This document shows positions 21,271 to 30,188 of a DNA stretch of 31,334 bases, piece by piece. The position numbers and the translations under genes are program-made. The first letter of the stretch is position 1. Each line of letters starts with the position of its first letter. Below the pieces are notes generated by a model that ran no database searches, had not been told where the DNA came from, and saw nothing but the letters and a program-made list of their open reading frames with translations. This DNA is from a virus: IMG/VR virus record IMGVR_UViG_3300049726_000028, positions 1-31,334 of that record. The stretch is one strand, 5' to 3'.

Positions 21271-22599
21271 TCAACGCCTTCTATATCTCGATGCCATTTG
21301 CGCGCGGGATTCTGATGACATTTTAAGCGATGCACCACAATAAAAACAGAGTAAAAGCGCATCTGCTTTGTCTGGAGATTTACCGAATCTTTTCTTGTAG
21401 TCTTTTTTCGATTCGATGATTCGGCGATTCGATCCTGGTTCAAAATCGTACAACCTACCAGAAAGTTGCTGCATTAAATCTTGATCATTCGGGATTTGTG
21501 CATACTCAATCGGGAATTCAAACCACATCTCATCAGCGCATGATTTATATTTATTCATATTTTTTGCGACTCCTCCAAAATTGATTCTACGAATAGCCGC
21601 GCCTAATTCCTTGAGTCGGTCAGATACACCTCCACCGACTCCCGTATCGTCGACCTTGATAATAATCGACTGGTCTTCGTTCGCGAGTGCCCAGGCTTCT
21701 TTTGCAGTTCTCATCGTGTCCTGTCCTATCCACGATCTATCGGCAATAACTTTAAGGCCATGCCGTTTGTAAATCTGCGTTGTATCGTCTCCGAATCGAG
21801 CAACATCAACGCCTATTTCGATAACCCCTGAAGGATCAACGATTCGATTCATAGCTGCACGAATAGCGACGCGACTCATTACAGAATTCTGTCCTTGCTT
21901 GCGAGGGTTCCCGCCGTATACGTGTTCGGCTTCGTCGGGATTTGTTTTATATAGCTCATCCATTTCTTTCTGAAGCCCGTCGTTCCACCAAGGGTTATCT
22001 TTTAACCCAGGTTCGACACGAAGTTTGAGAATATCGTCTCTATCGGAATTCCAAAAGCGTACAGTACAAGGATCGTAATCTGTTTCGGGATTATATGAAA
22101 CGAAAAGCCGCCATCCATTATTCCTAACGAGAGTAGGCATGAGCTTTGACCATGATTCGTCAATAATCGTTGCGGCCTCATCAGCCCATACAATATCATA
22201 TCCCTCGAGCCCTTTTATCTGATTGGCTGCTCGTAAATCTCGAAGCCCTCTGAAGATTATAAAGGAGCCGGTTTTTTTATTCGTTATCCTGTCAAGCGTA
22301 GGATGCCAGTCATTTATATATCCCAGTCTATTTATTGTGTCGATGATAAGTTGATAGACAGATTCTTGTAAGGTTAATTGTACTTCTCGCAAGCAGGCAA
22401 CGCGATGATATTCATACTGACAAAGCTGCACGATTAACGACGCTATGCCCCAAGATTTCGCGCCTGCGCCCCGGCCACCCTGCACTATAACAATCTGTTT
22501 GTCGGTAGTTCGCGCAAGTTCGAGTTTGGGGGAAACGAGTTCTTTTTCGTCTTGCTCTCTTAATAAAAGCTCTTCGATCTCTTCATCGATTAAGGACAT
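21271..22599 (-). CDS. terL: Terminase large subunit
   Basis: The packaging motor and nuclease, 442 residues. The ATPase half shows a Walker A-like loop GRGAGAKS at 42-49, Walker B IVWADEA (136-142, Asp140-Glu141), and SYNPE at 168-172 as the coupling motif. The nuclease half is RNase H-like with GVDVARFGDD (263-272, Asp265), KVDDTG (315-320) and SPDKADAL (408-415, Asp413). The last Gly of the usual GxxxxGKS is Ala47, a variant that occurs in this terminase type. GGAG before the ATG; overlaps the upstream gene by ten bases. Confidence 0.97.
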   Translation of the reverse strand: MSLIDEEIEELLLREQDEKELVSPKLELARTTDKQIVIVQGGRGAGAKSWGIASLIVQLCQYEYHRVACLREVQLTLQESVYQLIIDTINRLGYINDWHPTLDRITNKKTGSFIIFRGLRDLRAANQIKGLEGYDIVWADEAATIIDESWSKLMPTLVRNNGWRLFVSYNPETDYDPCTVRFWNSDRDDILKLRVEPGLKDNPWWNDGLQKEMDELYKTNPDEAEHVYGGNPRKQGQNSVMSRVAIRAAMNRIVDPSGVIEIGVDVARFGDDTTQIYKRHGLKVIADRSWIGQDTMRTAKEAWALANEDQSIIIKVDDTGVGGGVSDRLKELGAAIRRINFGGVAKNMNKYKSCADEMWFEFPIEYAQIPNDQDLMQQLSGRLYDFEPGSNRRIIESKKDYKKRFGKSPDKADALLLCFYCGASLKMSSESRAQMASRYRRR

Positions 22600-23663
22600 G
22601 TTACTCCATTATGCAAAAATCTGAACGAATAAGTATTTCGGTTAAAAGATAATGATTTGTTTAATGATTTGTTTCCTTTATTTTTTCCTGTTCTGCCGCT
22701 TCTTATTAAAATCCATCTATTATCTTTCATTAACATTTTAGCGAAATTATTCAAAGATGTAGTAATACCAAAATATTCTGGTTTATAAATATTCGATATT
22801 GCTATCATCATTTTTTTAGATATACCTATCCCTTGATAATCGGGTAAAACAACGATTCTATGTATCTTCCACATGTGATGATGTATTGGGTGTGGAAAAT
22901 TAATAACAGAACAAAATGCAATGGGCTTGTCATTATAGAAACCAACATATTCATGACCTGATTTATTTATTTCATGATTCAAATAATGATAACGTCTAAA
23001 ATATTCCCAATATCCTTTAACTCGTTTGATTTCAATTTTAATTTCAGGTCTTCGACAAAGTTGCCCCCTTGGAAGATTAGTCATACTATCGGTTGAAAAA
23101 ATCCAATCGGGTTGAAGCCATTCAATAACATCGAAATGACACGTTATCGCTATAAACTTTTTATTTAGTTTTCTTATAGTTTTTTGAACAGCAAGAGAGC
23201 CTATTCGAGCAACTTCTCTATCAATAACCGAGGTATATTCGTCAAATGCTATGATCTCTTTTTTTTGACATAGTGCCCTGGCCAAGTCTATTCTCATTTT
23301 TTCGCCATTTGATAGATTATAATACGTTTTTAACCATGACGGCGGAGAAGAAAATCCAACTGAAGATAATATATAAAAAAGTTCATCTGCATTTATGTCT
23401 TCTTCGAAATCGTCAATAACACTCTCGGCATTATATTGAAATTCGCAAATGTATTTAGAGAACAATTCTTTAGCTATAGAACTTTTATCGCTTCCCGACT
23501 TCCCTACAATAACACCTATATTCCAACTGTCGGGAATGTCTATTGCGCCTTTAAAGTTTTCAGTAATAATATTTTCTTGCATATCAAATTGATCGTAAAT
23601 CTGAGCAACTCTATAGCTTTTTTTTGATATTGTTTGTTTTTTTATAATGTTGAAATTTTGCAT
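22590..23663 (-). CDS. ABC-type ATPase fused to a GNAT acetyltransferase domain (COG2401-like)
   Basis: A protein of 357 residues with two domains. Residues about 20-200 are an ABC ATPase without membrane segments: Walker A-like GKSGSDKS at 54-61, signature LSNGE at 117-121, Walker B IIAFDE at 137-142, a D-loop-like SVIDR, and the H-loop His176. Residues about 205-345 are GNAT-like: HYLNHE, YVGFYNDKPIAF, then RIVVLPDYQGIGIS at 269-282, the acetyl-CoA-binding loop. The P-loop Gly before Lys is Asp59 (one base change from Gly). Such fusions occur in phages and archaea; their substrate is not settled. It lies between a ParB-like gene and the large terminase. Confidence 0.85.
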   Translation of the reverse strand: MQNFNIIKKQTISKKSYRVAQIYDQFDMQENIITENFKGAIDIPDSWNIGVIVGKSGSDKSSIAKELFSKYICEFQYNAESVIDDFEEDINADELFYILSSVGFSSPPSWLKTYYNLSNGEKMRIDLARALCQKKEIIAFDEYTSVIDREVARIGSLAVQKTIRKLNKKFIAITCHFDVIEWLQPDWIFSTDSMTNLPRGQLCRRPEIKIEIKRVKGYWEYFRRYHYLNHEINKSGHEYVGFYNDKPIAFCSVINFPHPIHHHMWKIHRIVVLPDYQGIGISKKMMIAISNIYKPEYFGITTSLNNFAKMLMKDNRWILIRSGRTGKNKGNKSLNKSLSFNRNTYSFRFLHNGVTCP

Positions 23664-24678: not shown

Positions 24679-24707
24679 ATAATACTCTTAATTTAACTAT
24701 TTGTCAA
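24679..24707 (-). promoter_or_regulatory. Leftward promoter of the packaging/late operon
   Basis: On the minus strand TTGACA (24707-24702), a 17-base spacer, and TATTAT (24684-24679). Transcription should start near 24672, leaving a leader of about 16 bases before the small terminase ATG. The spacing is ideal and the -35 box is perfect. Confidence 0.78.
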
Positions 24708-24737
24708 TATTTCGAGTTGAGGATGGAAATGATCCTT

Positions 24738-24841
24738 TCACGTCATAGGCTGCACGTGTTTATATAACCTCTCTATAGTAAATTTTACATTGTAATTTAC
24801 TTTTACAAATAGATGACGTCTATGACGTGAGACATAGACGT
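24738..24841. repeat. Cluster of CTATGACGT-type inverted repeats, candidate operators
   Basis: TCACGTCATAG at 24738-24748 is an exact inverted copy of CTATGACGTGA at 24820-24830. A second inverted pair, ACGTCTATG at 24816-24824 and CATAGACGT at 24833-24841, overlaps the second copy. A TTACATTGTAA palindrome lies between at 24785-24795. They sit between the divergent promoters and look like binding sites for a repressor or regulator. Confidence 0.62.
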
Positions 24842-24867
24842 AACAACGTTTTAACGCTAGAAAATTA

Positions 24868-24913
24868 AAGTTTCACATATAATATGTGATTTTTTTTATG
24901 AAAATTGAAACTT
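24868..24913. promoter_or_regulatory. Palindromes beside the rightward promoter
   Basis: TCACATAT-A-ATATGTGA at 24873-24889 is a perfect 17-base palindrome followed by a T tract. AAGTTTCA at 24868-24875 and TGAAACTT at 24906-24913 form a second inverted pair that encloses it and runs into the -35 box. Candidate operator or upstream control site of the rightward promoter. Confidence 0.5.
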
Positions 24914-24940
24914 GACAGATTTTGAATTTTAGTTTATATT
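24912..24940 (+). promoter_or_regulatory. Rightward promoter of the early operon
   Basis: TTGACA at 24912-24917, a 17-base spacer and TATATT at 24935-24940. Transcription should start near 24947, about 100 bases before the Bro-N gene and ahead of a strong terminator hairpin. Confidence 0.75.
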
Positions 24941-24946
24941 GATCTC

Positions 24947-25028
24947 AAGCTTGATTGCACCAGGCGATTGATTTGGCTTGTAAGCCCCTGGAATTGAGGT
25001 GCAATCTCGATTTCGGGGGCTTTTTTTT
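24947..25028 (+). ncRNA. Leader RNA or terminated small RNA upstream of the antirepressor gene
   Basis: An RNA of about 82 bases between the promoter and the terminator. GATTGCACC (24953-24961) is exactly complementary to GGTGCAATC (24998-25006), nine pairs. The 3' half of that pair lies in and beside the loop of the terminator hairpin, so the two structures compete. A small GGCT/AGCC hairpin (24975-24986) sits between. Position before a Bro-N gene recalls the C4 antisense RNAs of P1-like phages, which sit upstream of antirepressor genes, but no match to that family is claimed. Confidence 0.55.
24982..25028 (+). terminator. Strong intrinsic terminator in the antirepressor leader
   Basis: A stem of about 17 pairs (24982-24998 with 25006-25022, three of them G-T) with the loop GTGCAAT and eight T from 25021. 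It lies 20 bases before the Bro-N ATG, so the downstream early operon is expressed only when transcription reads through. Confidence 0.82.
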
Positions 25029-25047
25029 ATTGAAAAGGACGGTGTTT

Positions 25048-25593
25048 ATGGACGATTTAATGAAAATGTTTGATTTTAACGGTAATATTGTGAGAACAGT
25101 TATAGAAAAGAGAGGTGAATCATGGTGGGTTGCTTTAGATGTTTGTAATATTTTAGGATTGTCTGATGTTTCGAAATCCTTACAAAAACTTGATGCAGAT
25201 GAAAAGCTGATACGAAAACTATTCGTATCAGGTCAGTATAGAAACGTCTCTATCATCAACGAATTTGGGCTTTATTCATTAATTTTAACTTCAACAAAGC
25301 CAGAAGCCAAAGCTTTTAAAAGATGGTTGACGCACGAAGTTATCCCACAAATAAGAAAAACAGGTAAATACAATTATGCCTTTGAAACAAATCGGTTGAT
25401 TGAAAAATCGATTGAATTAAGATGTACCTGCATTATCGGAGAAAATCAATATCTGAAACAGCGAATATTAGAATTAGAAAAAAACATTGAATTACAAAGA
25501 GTTTCTAAATCGAAAAAAATGACAAATAAAGAAATGAATGCTATTTTTGATTCGTGGAATATTAAGGGGTTTCGTTTTAAGGAGTTATCATGA
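25048..25593 (+). CDS. Bro-N domain protein, antirepressor-like
   Basis: A protein of 181 residues. Residues about 5-110 form a Bro-N domain: FDFNGNIVRTV, ESWWVALDVCNILGL, then SIINEFGLYSLILTST and FKRWLTHEVIPQIRKTG, the standard ending of the domain. The C-terminal 70 residues are a charged helix followed by a short tail and do not look like the usual KilA-C or ANT domain. In phages such proteins act in lysis-lysogeny control. The open frame begins at 24955 but the ATG at 25048, preceded by AAGGA, lies after the leader terminator and is preferred. It overlaps the primase start as ATGA. Confidence 0.88.
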   Translation: MDDLMKMFDFNGNIVRTVIEKRGESWWVALDVCNILGLSDVSKSLQKLDADEKLIRKLFVSGQYRNVSIINEFGLYSLILTSTKPEAKAFKRWLTHEVIPQIRKTGKYNYAFETNRLIEKSIELRCTCIIGENQYLKQRILELEKNIELQRVSKSKKMTNKEMNAIFDSWNIKGFRFKELS

Positions 25594-27767
25594 AATCGTG
25601 GATCGCTTCTCATTTTAAAGTAGCTCGACAAGGCGATATTGAATGGGCAGTGCATTGTCCGGCTCATGACGATAAGAATCCTTCGGCATCGATTAACATA
25701 GAAAAAAAAGTTATTAATTGTCAACGGTGTGGTGGGATGTCTTTGTTTAAACTTGCTGAAAGAATGGGATGGGAAAGTCCGCCTGTTAGCGGGAATGGAT
25801 ATAAGCCAGACTTGACCGAAATTGCTCGATATGATTATCGAGACGAATCAGGAAAGATTCTGTATCAACAAATAAGATTTTTATTATCTAACGGTGAAAA
25901 AAGTTTTAGAGGGTATAATTCTGAAACCAAACAATGGAAGCTTGAAGGAATCAGGCGCGTGCCCTATCGCTTGCCTGAATTGCTAAAAGCGATTGAATCG
26001 AGACAGCAGATTTTTATTTGCGAAGGGGAAAAAGACGTTGAAACGCTTGTTTCGTGGGGATTGTGTGCTACGACTAATTCGAATGGAGCAAGATCGACAA
26101 AGATTTGGCATGAGTTCTCGCACTGGTTCGTTCCAGGACTTGTTATTTTTATTTGTCCCGATGCTGATTTAGACGGGATGAAACACGCTCAAACGGTTAA
26201 AGAAATACTTGATAAAAAACAGTGCAAAGTTAGAATTCTTAATTTCGGGTATCCTGTTGTCGAGAAACACGGGAAGGATGTAACAGACTGGAAAGCAGAA
26301 GGACATGACTTTGAAAATTTTATCAATTTGTTTACGGAAGACATGGAGGATGAGACACAGCCAGAAATGGAATCGCCTCCAGTTGAAAGTGACTGGGGTC
26401 ATGCCTGCACACTCGCGCCGTATTTTACTGGGAAATTCCGGTACGCCTCACATTTAGAATCATGGATGGAATATACCGGGAAAGTCTGGGCACCCATTAG
26501 TGATGAAAAATTAAATTGTATTTCGGCCGAGTTTTTGTTGAAACATTATTTTGAAAAAGTACAGATTAGTATGCAGTCGTTTGATAAAGAAGCTTTGAAA
26601 AGATCAATGACGGCGTGGAAAGAAGCGCAGAAATACTACAAGATTCAAGGAGCTATCAACTTTCTCAAAGGTTGGAAAGGGATATTGACTGAATATTTCG
26701 AATGGGATCAGTACCCTTGGTTGCTTAACGTGAACAACGGAATTATCGACTTGCGAGAGGGCGTATTGCTCGATCACGATCCTGACAAAATGCTAACACA
26801 GTTAGCGCCGGTTGATTATGATCCAAAAGCGGCGGGTGCAGTGTGGACGGCTCACCTTGAAAAGTTTTTGCCTGCTCCTGATCTAAGAAGGGAAGTTCAA
26901 CGTAATCTTGGTCTTGCTCTTTGTGGTGCGCAAAACTCCGAGATTTTCCCGATCTGGTACGGAACGGGAGCGAACGGGAAGAGCACTACTATCAAGGCAA
27001 TACAGCAAGTCATGGGGAATTATGCTATCAAGGCCGCGGCTGACATTTTAATAGCATCCAAATTTGACAAACATCCAGCAGAAATAGCGGATTTATGCGG
27101 AGCGCGGTTGATTTTCTCAGTCGAAACGGATGATCAGAAAAGACTTGCAGAAGCTAAAGTCAAAGAACTTACCGGCGGCGATACGATTAAAGCTCGAAAG
27201 ATGTATGGAAGCTTTTTCCAGTTTGAAAAAACTTGGACTATTTTTTTATTGACGAATCACAAGCCTATTATCCGTGGGACAGATAACGCAATATGGAGAC
27301 GTGTACGGTTAATCCCATGGGGCGTAAGGATAAGCGACAAAGACAAATTGCCTCAAGATGAGGTGGTAAAATATTTACGCGAAGAAAGTCCTGCTATTTT
27401 AAACTGGTTATTGGAAGGCTTGAGAGACACGCTTGATAATCCGACATGGGAAGCTGGAGAAGTTAAATCAGCCACGGATGACTATCGACACGACCAGGAT
27501 TGTCTATCAGGCTTTCTGGATTCCGAATGCGAAGCAGGAGCAAAATATAAGGCTGCTACCGTAGAGACCTATCAAGCATACGATGCGTACTGTCGAGGGA
27601 TCAATGAAGAACCATATAAAACTCGAACTTTTATGAAAATGATGAAAGATCGGGAGTATTGCATAGATAGACACGGAAAAACAAGTGATTTCGTCGGCAT
27701 CCGCCTTAAAACAGGATCGCATTCTAATGAGCCTGCAGACACTGGTAACGAAGATTTTTTCTCTTAA
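25590..27767 (+). CDS. Phage replicative primase-helicase (P4 alpha-like)
   Basis: A protein of 725 residues that combines primer synthesis and unwinding. A zinc-binding start has Cys23, His26, Cys44 and Cys47. A TOPRIM core follows, with FICEGEKD (142-149, Glu145) and CPDADLDG (189-196). The helicase part (about 370-620) is SF3/P4-type: D5-N-like segment, Walker A GTGANGKST at 458-466, an acidic Walker B region near 508-515, LLTNHKP (553-559) and the RRVRLIPW ending at 570-577. It would open the origin and prime replication. Start by ATGA overlap with the Bro-N gene, with AAGGAG upstream. Confidence 0.92.
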   Translation: MKSWIASHFKVARQGDIEWAVHCPAHDDKNPSASINIEKKVINCQRCGGMSLFKLAERMGWESPPVSGNGYKPDLTEIARYDYRDESGKILYQQIRFLLSNGEKSFRGYNSETKQWKLEGIRRVPYRLPELLKAIESRQQIFICEGEKDVETLVSWGLCATTNSNGARSTKIWHEFSHWFVPGLVIFICPDADLDGMKHAQTVKEILDKKQCKVRILNFGYPVVEKHGKDVTDWKAEGHDFENFINLFTEDMEDETQPEMESPPVESDWGHACTLAPYFTGKFRYASHLESWMEYTGKVWAPISDEKLNCISAEFLLKHYFEKVQISMQSFDKEALKRSMTAWKEAQKYYKIQGAINFLKGWKGILTEYFEWDQYPWLLNVNNGIIDLREGVLLDHDPDKMLTQLAPVDYDPKAAGAVWTAHLEKFLPAPDLRREVQRNLGLALCGAQNSEIFPIWYGTGANGKSTTIKAIQQVMGNYAIKAAADILIASKFDKHPAEIADLCGARLIFSVETDDQKRLAEAKVKELTGGDTIKARKMYGSFFQFEKTWTIFLLTNHKPIIRGTDNAIWRRVRLIPWGVRISDKDKLPQDEVVKYLREESPAILNWLLEGLRDTLDNPTWEAGEVKSATDDYRHDQDCLSGFLDSECEAGAKYKAATVETYQAYDAYCRGINEEPYKTRTFMKMMKDREYCIDRHGKTSDFVGIRLKTGSHSNEPADTGNEDFFS

Positions 27768-28826: not shown

Positions 28827-29018
28827 ATGCGTTCCCTTTTTGACATCGATTTTGACATCGAAATTGAGAAAGAAAAACTAACAACTGTTATAGGAACAGA
28901 ATGTGAGGTCTATACTCGTATCGTAGGCTACTATAGACCCATAAAAAACTGGAACAAAGGGCAGAGGCAAGCATTCAACGAAAGAACAGTGTTTGATGTG
29001 CCGAAAACGAAGGAGTAG
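28827..29018 (+). CDS. Free-standing NrdD-like glycyl-radical domain
   Basis: A protein of 63 residues. Residues 27-55 (EVYTRIVGYYRP, then NWNKGQRQAFNERTVF) read like the extreme C-terminus of anaerobic ribonucleoside-triphosphate reductase NrdD, where the Gly in R-x-x-G-Y carries the radical; here it would be Gly34. The large reductase body and the Cys4 zinc site are absent (only Cys26 remains). This resembles the way YfiD/GrcA supplies a spare glycyl-radical end to pyruvate formate-lyase, but for NrdD. The 12-base unit TTTTGACATCGA is repeated in the N-terminal codons. Function inferred. Confidence 0.72.
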   Translation: MRSLFDIDFDIEIEKEKLTTVIGTECEVYTRIVGYYRPIKNWNKGQRQAFNERTVFDVPKTKE

Positions 29019-29219: not shown

Positions 29220-29964
29220 CGATCATTTTCAGAATTTCAAGAGATATGATATCCCAAAAGCTCAATTGGTTTTGACCGATATACCTTATAATGTTGGGGT
29301 CAATGCTTATGGCAGTAATCCGTCTTGGTATGTTGATGGTGATAATAAAAACGGTGAAAGCAAGCTCGCAGGGACGTCTTTTTTTGATACCGACGAGAAA
29401 TTCAAGATTCCCGAATTCTTGCATTTTTGCAGTAAAATGTTGAAACCGGAACCGAAAGAGCGAGGGGATGCTGCCTGCATGATTGTTTTTTGTTCTTATG
29501 AACAGCAGTTTATTTTAATTCAAGAAGCAAAAAATCACGGATTAAATAATTATATTAACCTTGTTTTTAGAAAAGATTTTTCAGCGCAAGTTTTAAAAGC
29601 AAACATGCGTATAGTTGGAAATTGTGAATATGCCCTTGTTCTTTATCGCGAAAAATTACCCAAATTCAATAACGACGGACATATGATTTTTAATTGCATG
29701 GATTGGCCGCGAGATAAAACCACTCCGAAAGTGCATCCTACTCAAAAGCCGGTTTTGCTGATGGAATTATTAATCCGAATATTTACCGATGAAAATGACG
29801 TTGTTATTGATCCATGTGCCGGAAGTGCTGTAACGTTGTTAGCTGCAAACAATCTTAATCGAAAAGGATATGGGTTTGAAATTAAAAAGAATTTCTACAA
29901 AGAAGCTAACGAGAATATTTTGAAATATTCGAATAAATATTTGTTCGAGAATATTGACAAATAA
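29197..29964 (+). CDS. DNA methyltransferase (N6-adenine or N4-cytosine type)
   Basis: A protein of 255 residues with permuted beta-class order: the catalytic loop TDIPYNVG near 27-34 (DIPY in place of DPPY) comes first, then the target-recognition region, and HPTQKPVLLMELL (176-188) and DPCAGSAVTLLAA (206-218, the AdoMet loop) come last. It would methylate an exocyclic amine in DNA, for self-protection or regulation. No restriction endonuclease is adjacent, so it is an orphan in this window. The GTG start follows AAAGG. The stop overlaps the promoter of the second RNA element. Confidence 0.9.
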   Translation: MERIQLFNDHFQNFKRYDIPKAQLVLTDIPYNVGVNAYGSNPSWYVDGDNKNGESKLAGTSFFDTDEKFKIPEFLHFCSKMLKPEPKERGDAACMIVFCSYEQQFILIQEAKNHGLNNYINLVFRKDFSAQVLKANMRIVGNCEYALVLYREKLPKFNNDGHMIFNCMDWPRDKTTPKVHPTQKPVLLMELLIRIFTDENDVVIDPCAGSAVTLLAANNLNRKGYGFEIKKNFYKEANENILKYSNKYLFENIDK

Positions 29965-29987
29965 TCAAAAATTGATTAAGATATAAT
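29954..29987 (+). promoter_or_regulatory. Promoter of the second leader RNA
   Basis: TTGACA at 29954-29959, a 17-base spacer and TAAGAT at 29977-29982, with a perfect TATAAT overlapping at 29982-29987 but at 22 bases. The stretch is AT-rich and lies at the very end of the methyltransferase gene. Confidence 0.5.
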
Positions 29988-29989
29988 CA

Positions 29990-30075
29990 GAGTTGCGGTC
30001 AGGCAAATCAACAAAATAATGTTGCGCAATAAAAACCCTCTGGGTATAGCCTGACCGCTTCCAGAGGGTTTTTTT
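29990..30075 (+). ncRNA. Second leader or terminated small RNA
   Basis: An RNA of about 85 bases. GCGGTCAGGC (29995-30004) is exactly complementary to GCCTGACCGC (30049-30058), ten pairs. The 3' strand is the loop of the terminator hairpin. A small CAACA/TGTTG hairpin (30009-30024) sits between. The stem order A, hairpin, T, A', T' is the same as in the leader upstream of the Bro-N gene. Both stems are unlikely to form fully together because only two bases separate A' from T'. Confidence 0.6.
30031..30075 (+). terminator. Intrinsic terminator of the second leader RNA
   Basis: A perfect 13-pair stem (30031-30043 with 30061-30073) closes a 17-base loop and runs into seven T. Because the 5' arm begins with five A, it could also stop transcription on the opposite strand. 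Confidence 0.85.
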
Positions 30076-30101: not shown

Positions 30102-30188
30102 ATGGAAAGTATTTCGGACATAATTTGGGCTGCGGGATCGTGCGTAATAATAGGTTTATTGATTTACAGTCTTTACATCAAAAGATAG
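30102..30188 (+). CDS. 28-residue membrane peptide
   Basis: ATG with AAAGGAGAGG upstream opens a frame of 28 codons that begins MESISDIIWAAGS and ends YIKR. The middle (about 7-24) is one membrane helix. It is the first gene after the terminator of the second RNA element, so its expression would depend on read-through. No family recognised. Confidence 0.6.
   Translation: MESISDIIWAAGSCVIIGLLIYSLYIKR

Follow-up and report, generated by a model that had tools for sequence, protein, structure and literature searches.

A candidate self-pairing RNA attenuator before a phage early operon, recurring with different letters in related phages

Premature termination of phage early operons under the control of RNA is known from a small number of coliphages, usually as isolated examples. 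In phage N15, the CA RNA reportedly controls antA (Ravin and co-workers). The C4 RNA of P1 acts on a downstream ribosome-binding site, and in the plasmids pT181 and pIP501 RNA pairing sets terminator versus readthrough in the leader before the replication gene. In P4, the CI RNA pairs with seqA and seqC, resulting in termination of the replication operon (PMC4825925). In the case of IsrK of Gifsy-1, one promoter has two products: a small RNA when transcription terminates, or the mRNA of an antirepressor-like gene on readthrough, with alternative structures involved (PMC4825925).

The window analyzed here comprises the 31,334 nucleotides of IMG/VR virus record IMGVR_UViG_3300049726_000028 (positions 1 to 31,334). 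It carries two leader elements of comparable layout, W1 and W2, the former preceding a Bro-N antirepressor-type gene (Table 1). Positions 24679-24912 form a divergent control region, in which a promoter TTGACA-17-TATTAT (24707-24679) points left, to the packaging and structural genes, and ACGTCTATG...CATAGACGT (24816-24841) is an inverted repeat that resembles a repressor operator. A protein encoded on the leftward strand at 22590-23663, immediately upstream of the terminase, combines an ABC-ATPase-like portion with a GNAT acetyltransferase domain (PHROG 11143, E 4.9e-96). A 63-aa ORF at 28827-29018 matched the C-terminal end of anaerobic ribonucleotide reductase only (NRDD, E 5.5e-7), and its product is a small protein resembling a glycyl-radical spare part.

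Table 1. Positions of the two leader elements of the window and of the neighboring genes
Feature	Position	Strand	Basis or remark
W1 promoter, TTGACA-17-TATATT	24912..24940	+	Predicted sigma-70-type, 11/12
W1 5' hairpin of the leader (H1), loop ACCAG, segment A inside	24946..24980	+	MFE fold
W1 segment A, GATTGCACC	24953..24961	+	Exact reverse complement of 24998-25006
W1 intrinsic terminator hairpin, then T tract	24982..25022	+	Hairpin -28.3 kcal/mol
W1 segment A', GGTGCAATC, terminator top and loop	24998..25006	+	Complement of segment A
Bro-N antirepressor-type gene, first behind the W1 terminator	25048..25593	+	Pfam PF02498 E 6.6e-22; PHROG Ant E 4.9e-44
D5/P4-type primase-helicase, second gene of the operon	25590..27767	+	
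W2 promoter, TTGACA-17-TAAGAT	29954..29982	+	10/12, predicted
W2 segment A, GCGGTCAGGC	29995..30004	+	Unique in the window
W2 terminator hairpin	30031..30073	+	
W2 segment A', GCCTGACCGC, within the 17-nt terminator loop	30049..30058	+	
Short ORF behind W2, 28 aa, hydrophobic, SD AAAGGAG	30102..30188	+	Sequence

A preliminary description of the locus had claimed a promoter before Bro-N, a strong terminator of 17 pairs and a nine-base complementarity between an upstream segment (A) and the terminator (A'). The promoter prediction is borne out, the complementarity is exact and the terminator is indeed strong, with 19 pairs when G-U is included in the count; leader and terminator together fold at -39.3 kcal/mol compared to -20.8 +/- 3.0 for shuffles (z -6.3). 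The leader is approximately 75-80 nt long, given the predicted start site, and neither W1 word recurs on that strand of the window. The corresponding match in W2 is 10 bp. Bro-N starts about 25 nt 3' of the W1 hairpin with the SD AAAAGGA, and no promoter-like site was found between the terminator and the gene. Transcripts starting at the W1 promoter or farther upstream must therefore cross the terminator to reach Bro-N and the genes behind it, and from this position W1 is predicted to act as a switch for the whole operon. Two other modes of control were rejected for W1. Leader-peptide attenuation of the trp/his type does not fit, as between start and terminator the leader lacks an ATG preceded by a Shine-Dalgarno site and His_leader scored 14.5 of 49 bits, nor does antisense action on the ribosome-binding site, since within the first 63 downstream nucleotides the leader has no match longer than 4 nt.

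Through the Bro-N protein and the primase a contig near-identical to the window was found (L003, 99.9%), together with two relatives, L004 (primase identity 72%) and L007 (68%). In L004, an 88-residue ORF occupies the place of Bro-N and the layout before it is unchanged: TTGACA-17-TAATAT is followed by a small hairpin with the loop ACUCACAC and by a terminator whose seven-base 3' bulge, GUGUGAG, is the exact complement of CUCACAC within that loop. In L007, the H1 loop AUCGCGC stands opposite the terminator bulge GCGCGA. The early region of this phage also contains a tRNA gene (L007:10191-10263; Rfam tRNA, 53.7 bits). The leaders of L004 and L007 could not be aligned with those of the window. 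Prophage relatives were not found in the genome contigs searched.

The three contigs were scanned, with complementarity ignored, for sites combining a promoter (at least 10/12), a terminator and an SD-preceded start codon. The scan returned exactly seven sites: 24982 and 30031 in the window, 9795, 12368 and 14511 in L023 (the contig of L004), and 7602 and 2773 (minus strand) in L024 (that of L007). The elements of the three phages are labeled W1, W2, A1, A2, A3, B1, and B2. The promoter spacer is 17 nt and the gap from A to A' 36-48 nt in all seven, and each has a match between leader and terminator, of 9, 10, 7, 8, 7, 6, and 8 bases. That of 8 bases in A2 needs one G-U pair, and the 6-base match is of loop to bulge, the same element having a 7-nt match elsewhere. 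Exchange of partners among the seven elements reached the observed sum in 2/5040 cases by length, 4/5040 with one G-U allowed and 1/5040 by duplex energy. The elements have neither a common sequence nor a fixed structure, and no alignable pair of leaders was found for classical covariation, although the genes are 70-85% identical. Nevertheless the two partner segments change in concert and in full from one relative to the next, so that the proposal survived a test on which the preliminary description had staked it, namely covariation among related phages. The W1 match taken alone (p ~0.004-0.008 against shuffles) is suggestive; it is secured by the recurrence of such matches at other sites.

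A DNA methyltransferase adjoining several elements served as seed for a wider survey, which added approximately 138 IMG/VR loci (~2 Mb) and, being seeded in this way, gives no measure of true abundance. None of the 12 survey contigs tested (G004-G015, from the first methyltransferase search) contained a relative of the window primase. The same scan revealed further elements in L051, L054, L055, L057 (three), L155, L164, L183, L192, and L195. Each of those in L057 (5079-5145, 5843-5908, and 8236-8302) has two contacts. In one, the H1 loop faces the 3' bulge of its terminator (e.g., UUGACCC / GGGUCAA); in the other, a single-stranded stretch of the leader matches the apical loop over its full eight bases (AUGUGGCA / UGCCACAU). 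Elements 1 and 2 of this phage have the H1 loop core UUGACC in common, and cross-talk between them is possible. At L051:16493-16571 and L051:10883-10953, leader and terminator match over ~13-16 bases with small interruptions. In L164 and L055, seven Watson-Crick pairs are lengthened to 13 by G-U pairs. L183 and L188 have the region of the downstream gene in common (85% over 78 bases) but not the leader, and in L188 two exact matches were read from the sequence, TTGACAA/TTGTCAA and TGGCTAC/GTAGCCA. The promoters of L151 and L188 appear, from their letters, to be of the Bacteroidota type (TATATTTG).

Leaders of this outline do not always contain a match. In unrelated contigs fetched by DNA pattern, promoter, leader, terminator and gene were present and the match did not exceed 3-5 bases, while scanning of the named cultured phages SMO_1P, T25, AcaML1 (part), Fern (part), Tuc2009 (part), and GMA4 (part) gave no clear element. 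Leaders of the unrelated phages L032/L039 (e.g., L039:9624-9759) and L045, the last with two tandem terminators, combine a promoter, a strong terminator and a gene start without self-complementarity; these represent another kind of promoter-proximal terminator.

For statistics, we used a set of 26 non-redundant sites from IMG/VR phages, chosen by promoter, terminator and start codon alone. The complementarity of cognate partners was reached by none of 100,000 partner permutations on three measures. Summed match length was 175, against 128 +/- 4.3 in dinucleotide shuffles of each leader (maximum 141 in 1000). The enrichment was carried by the strong-promoter sites (7.28 vs. 5.03 shuffled, z 10.9); in promoter class 9/12 the mean match was 5.5 vs. 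4.7, and some of the weaker-promoter sites had no match. Direct repeats, examined as a control, were not enriched. A control with reversed leaders was mildly high (234/20,000), which is probably an effect of composition; a composition artifact as the source of the match itself is removed by the per-element dinucleotide shuffles. Permutations and shuffles together exclude chance as the source of the match on this set.

Folding of growing prefixes of the seven elements showed that A:A' is dominant in six of them once A' is made (P 0.74-1.0), and that in most elements the terminator replaces it 4-12 bases later, with the appearance of the 3' arm. In W2 and B1 the terminator prevails only near full length, while A3 at the decisive length forms mostly H1 and less A:A'. 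In the full-length fold, the terminator is preferred by 3 to 21 kcal/mol. As modeled, the succession of folds in the prefixes is the behavior of a co-transcriptional switch. Within the hairpin, A' was unpaired at 0.55 compared to 0.25 for the rest of the interior (p 0.002). It sits in a loop or bulge, whereas textbook antiterminators use the 5' arm. A:A' and the terminator could thus coexist as a pseudoknot and need not exclude each other. In W1 the modeled A:A' helix is lengthened by pairing with the 5' arm of the terminator, and in this model the A:A' structure is a true antiterminator.

We consider it fairly probable that such an element is an RNA-only attenuator, i.e., a conditional terminator gating an early phage operon, perhaps self-regulated by its own terminated leader. 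RNA polymerase would start at the strong promoter and make a leader of ~75-125 nt, in which segment A emerges first and later pairs with A', holding the RNA in a non-terminator fold. Termination would be conditional, with A:A' as the ON state: should this fold last past the T tract, readthrough into Bro-N and the primase would follow, and should A be blocked or A:A' be displaced in time, the terminator hairpin would form and a short RNA would be released. The released RNA would expose A' in a loop and, in many cases, also present A in the loop of a hairpin; by annealing to segment A of the next leader being transcribed, it could drive that leader towards termination. Such action in trans we regard as conceivable but doubtful. 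The outcome would be self-limiting operons and, by analogy with the CI RNA of P4, immunity in the lysogen. A protein might also help the switch.

A rather unlikely alternative is that the element mainly serves to make the short terminated RNA, which acts in trans, as an immunity or regulatory RNA in the manner of P4 CI, N15 CA or IsrK of Gifsy-1, with readthrough secondary and A/A' serving recognition between copies and no cis switch. The position of A' in loops and bulges and of A often in the H1 loop is that of kissing antisense RNAs. Furthermore, A and A' of W1, W2, A1, and B2 occur once each in their own genomes, which leaves another copy of the same leader as the sole possible partner, and leaders that cannot be aligned between relatives with neighbor genes 70-85% identical are to be expected of immunity specificities. 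However, the constant spacing from A to A' and the prefix folding suit a cis switch equally, each element directly precedes a gene start, and no trans target was found.

Protein-dependent antitermination is improbable. The pseudoknotted leader would here serve as a platform on which a phage antiterminator lands, or would act directly on RNA polymerase, as with lambda Q at PR'-tR' or HK022 put, and the polymerase would then read past the terminator. Lambda PR' with its early terminator has a layout like that of the elements, a similar promoter and terminator are annotated in N15, and the presence of an element before several operons of one phage would suit a common factor. A mechanism of this kind needs a conserved sequence, and none exists between elements, even within one phage; moreover, no antiterminator gene was recognized among the window genes tested, and the private A/A' words would be left unexplained.

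It is very improbable that the elements are ordinary constitutive terminators or transcription dampers with complementarity as a chance event or by-product: unrelated phages do have such leaders without a match, but chance is excluded on the site set. Even less credible are A and A' as DNA operator half-sites of a repressor rather than RNA partners, since these inverted repeats near the promoter vary among the elements of one phage, so that no single repressor would serve all, A' is located in the terminator loop or bulge, and the G-U pairs that continue the long matches favor RNA pairing over DNA symmetry.

The attenuator reading has consequences beyond this locus. The compact design is present in two or three copies within one genome and also in several phages that are not related, and its partner segments co-change, which suggests that temperate phages commonly gate early operons by private self-pairing RNAs. 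The chances are about even that the elements belong to a large class of phage riboregulators defined by architecture alone (promoter, 5' segment A, terminator with A' in the loop or 3' bulge, gene start) and spread over unrelated phages and possibly, given the Bacteroidota-type promoters of L151 and L188, several host phyla. A private A/A' code for each operon would then provide dozens of orthogonal, self-regulated switches invisible to sequence and covariance surveys. Private, non-conserved words would explain the absence of the elements from databases of conserved RNA families. As they are 75-125 nt long, self-contained and naturally orthogonal, they would be ready-made parts for synthetic circuits.

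Regarding described families, no Rfam family, riboswitch or other cis element, matched the elements when the window and seven related loci were searched. The literature searched, in which few subscription papers were covered, yielded no description of their layout, in which the terminator hairpin itself holds the antisense word and several operons are each preceded by a private copy. In the plasmids pT181 and pIP501 the regulator is a counter-transcript, whereas here both partners are on one transcript. The preliminary description had offered an attenuator or a C4-like RNA. The former has gained good support from the recurrence, in 7/7 sites and in several other phages, and from prefix folding, while the likeness to C4 of P1/P7 is positional only: in both, a short RNA lies just before an antirepressor-type gene, but the W1 leader has no complementarity to the ribosome-binding region of Bro-N, and a search with the C4 model (RF01695) gave no match at the gathering threshold or among hits with E<=10.

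IsrK has in common with the elements the choice between small RNA and readthrough from one promoter, as well as alternative structures. It differs in acting on orf45-anrP translation and in pairing outside its terminator, and the elements match neither its sequence nor its Rfam model (RF01394). The N15 antA leader has the same order of promoter, short leader, intrinsic terminator and antirepressor gene, and its word ACAAGAAG, as read from the sequence, has a complement, CTTCTTGT; this complement is downstream of the terminator, while that of the elements is within it. Here, as for P4 CI and N15 CA, a strong promoter is followed by a leader that is not translated and that precedes an early or replication operon. 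A separate processed antisense RNA with a second downstream target was not found, A' being in the terminator and no further copy of A or A' occurring in the window. In the P4 immunity system (PLE leader, CI RNA, seqA/seqB/seqC), as in the elements, complementary segments lie inside one leader, and premature termination takes place in an untranslated leader before a replication operon with a P4-type primase. The P4 leader is long and processed, with the CI RNA cut out of it, in contrast to an antisense word in a compact intrinsic terminator hairpin, a leader of 75-125 nt and, within one phage, as many as three private copies. On these comparisons, the elements fail the tests for C4, fit no named family and would work like the group of P4, N15, and IsrK.
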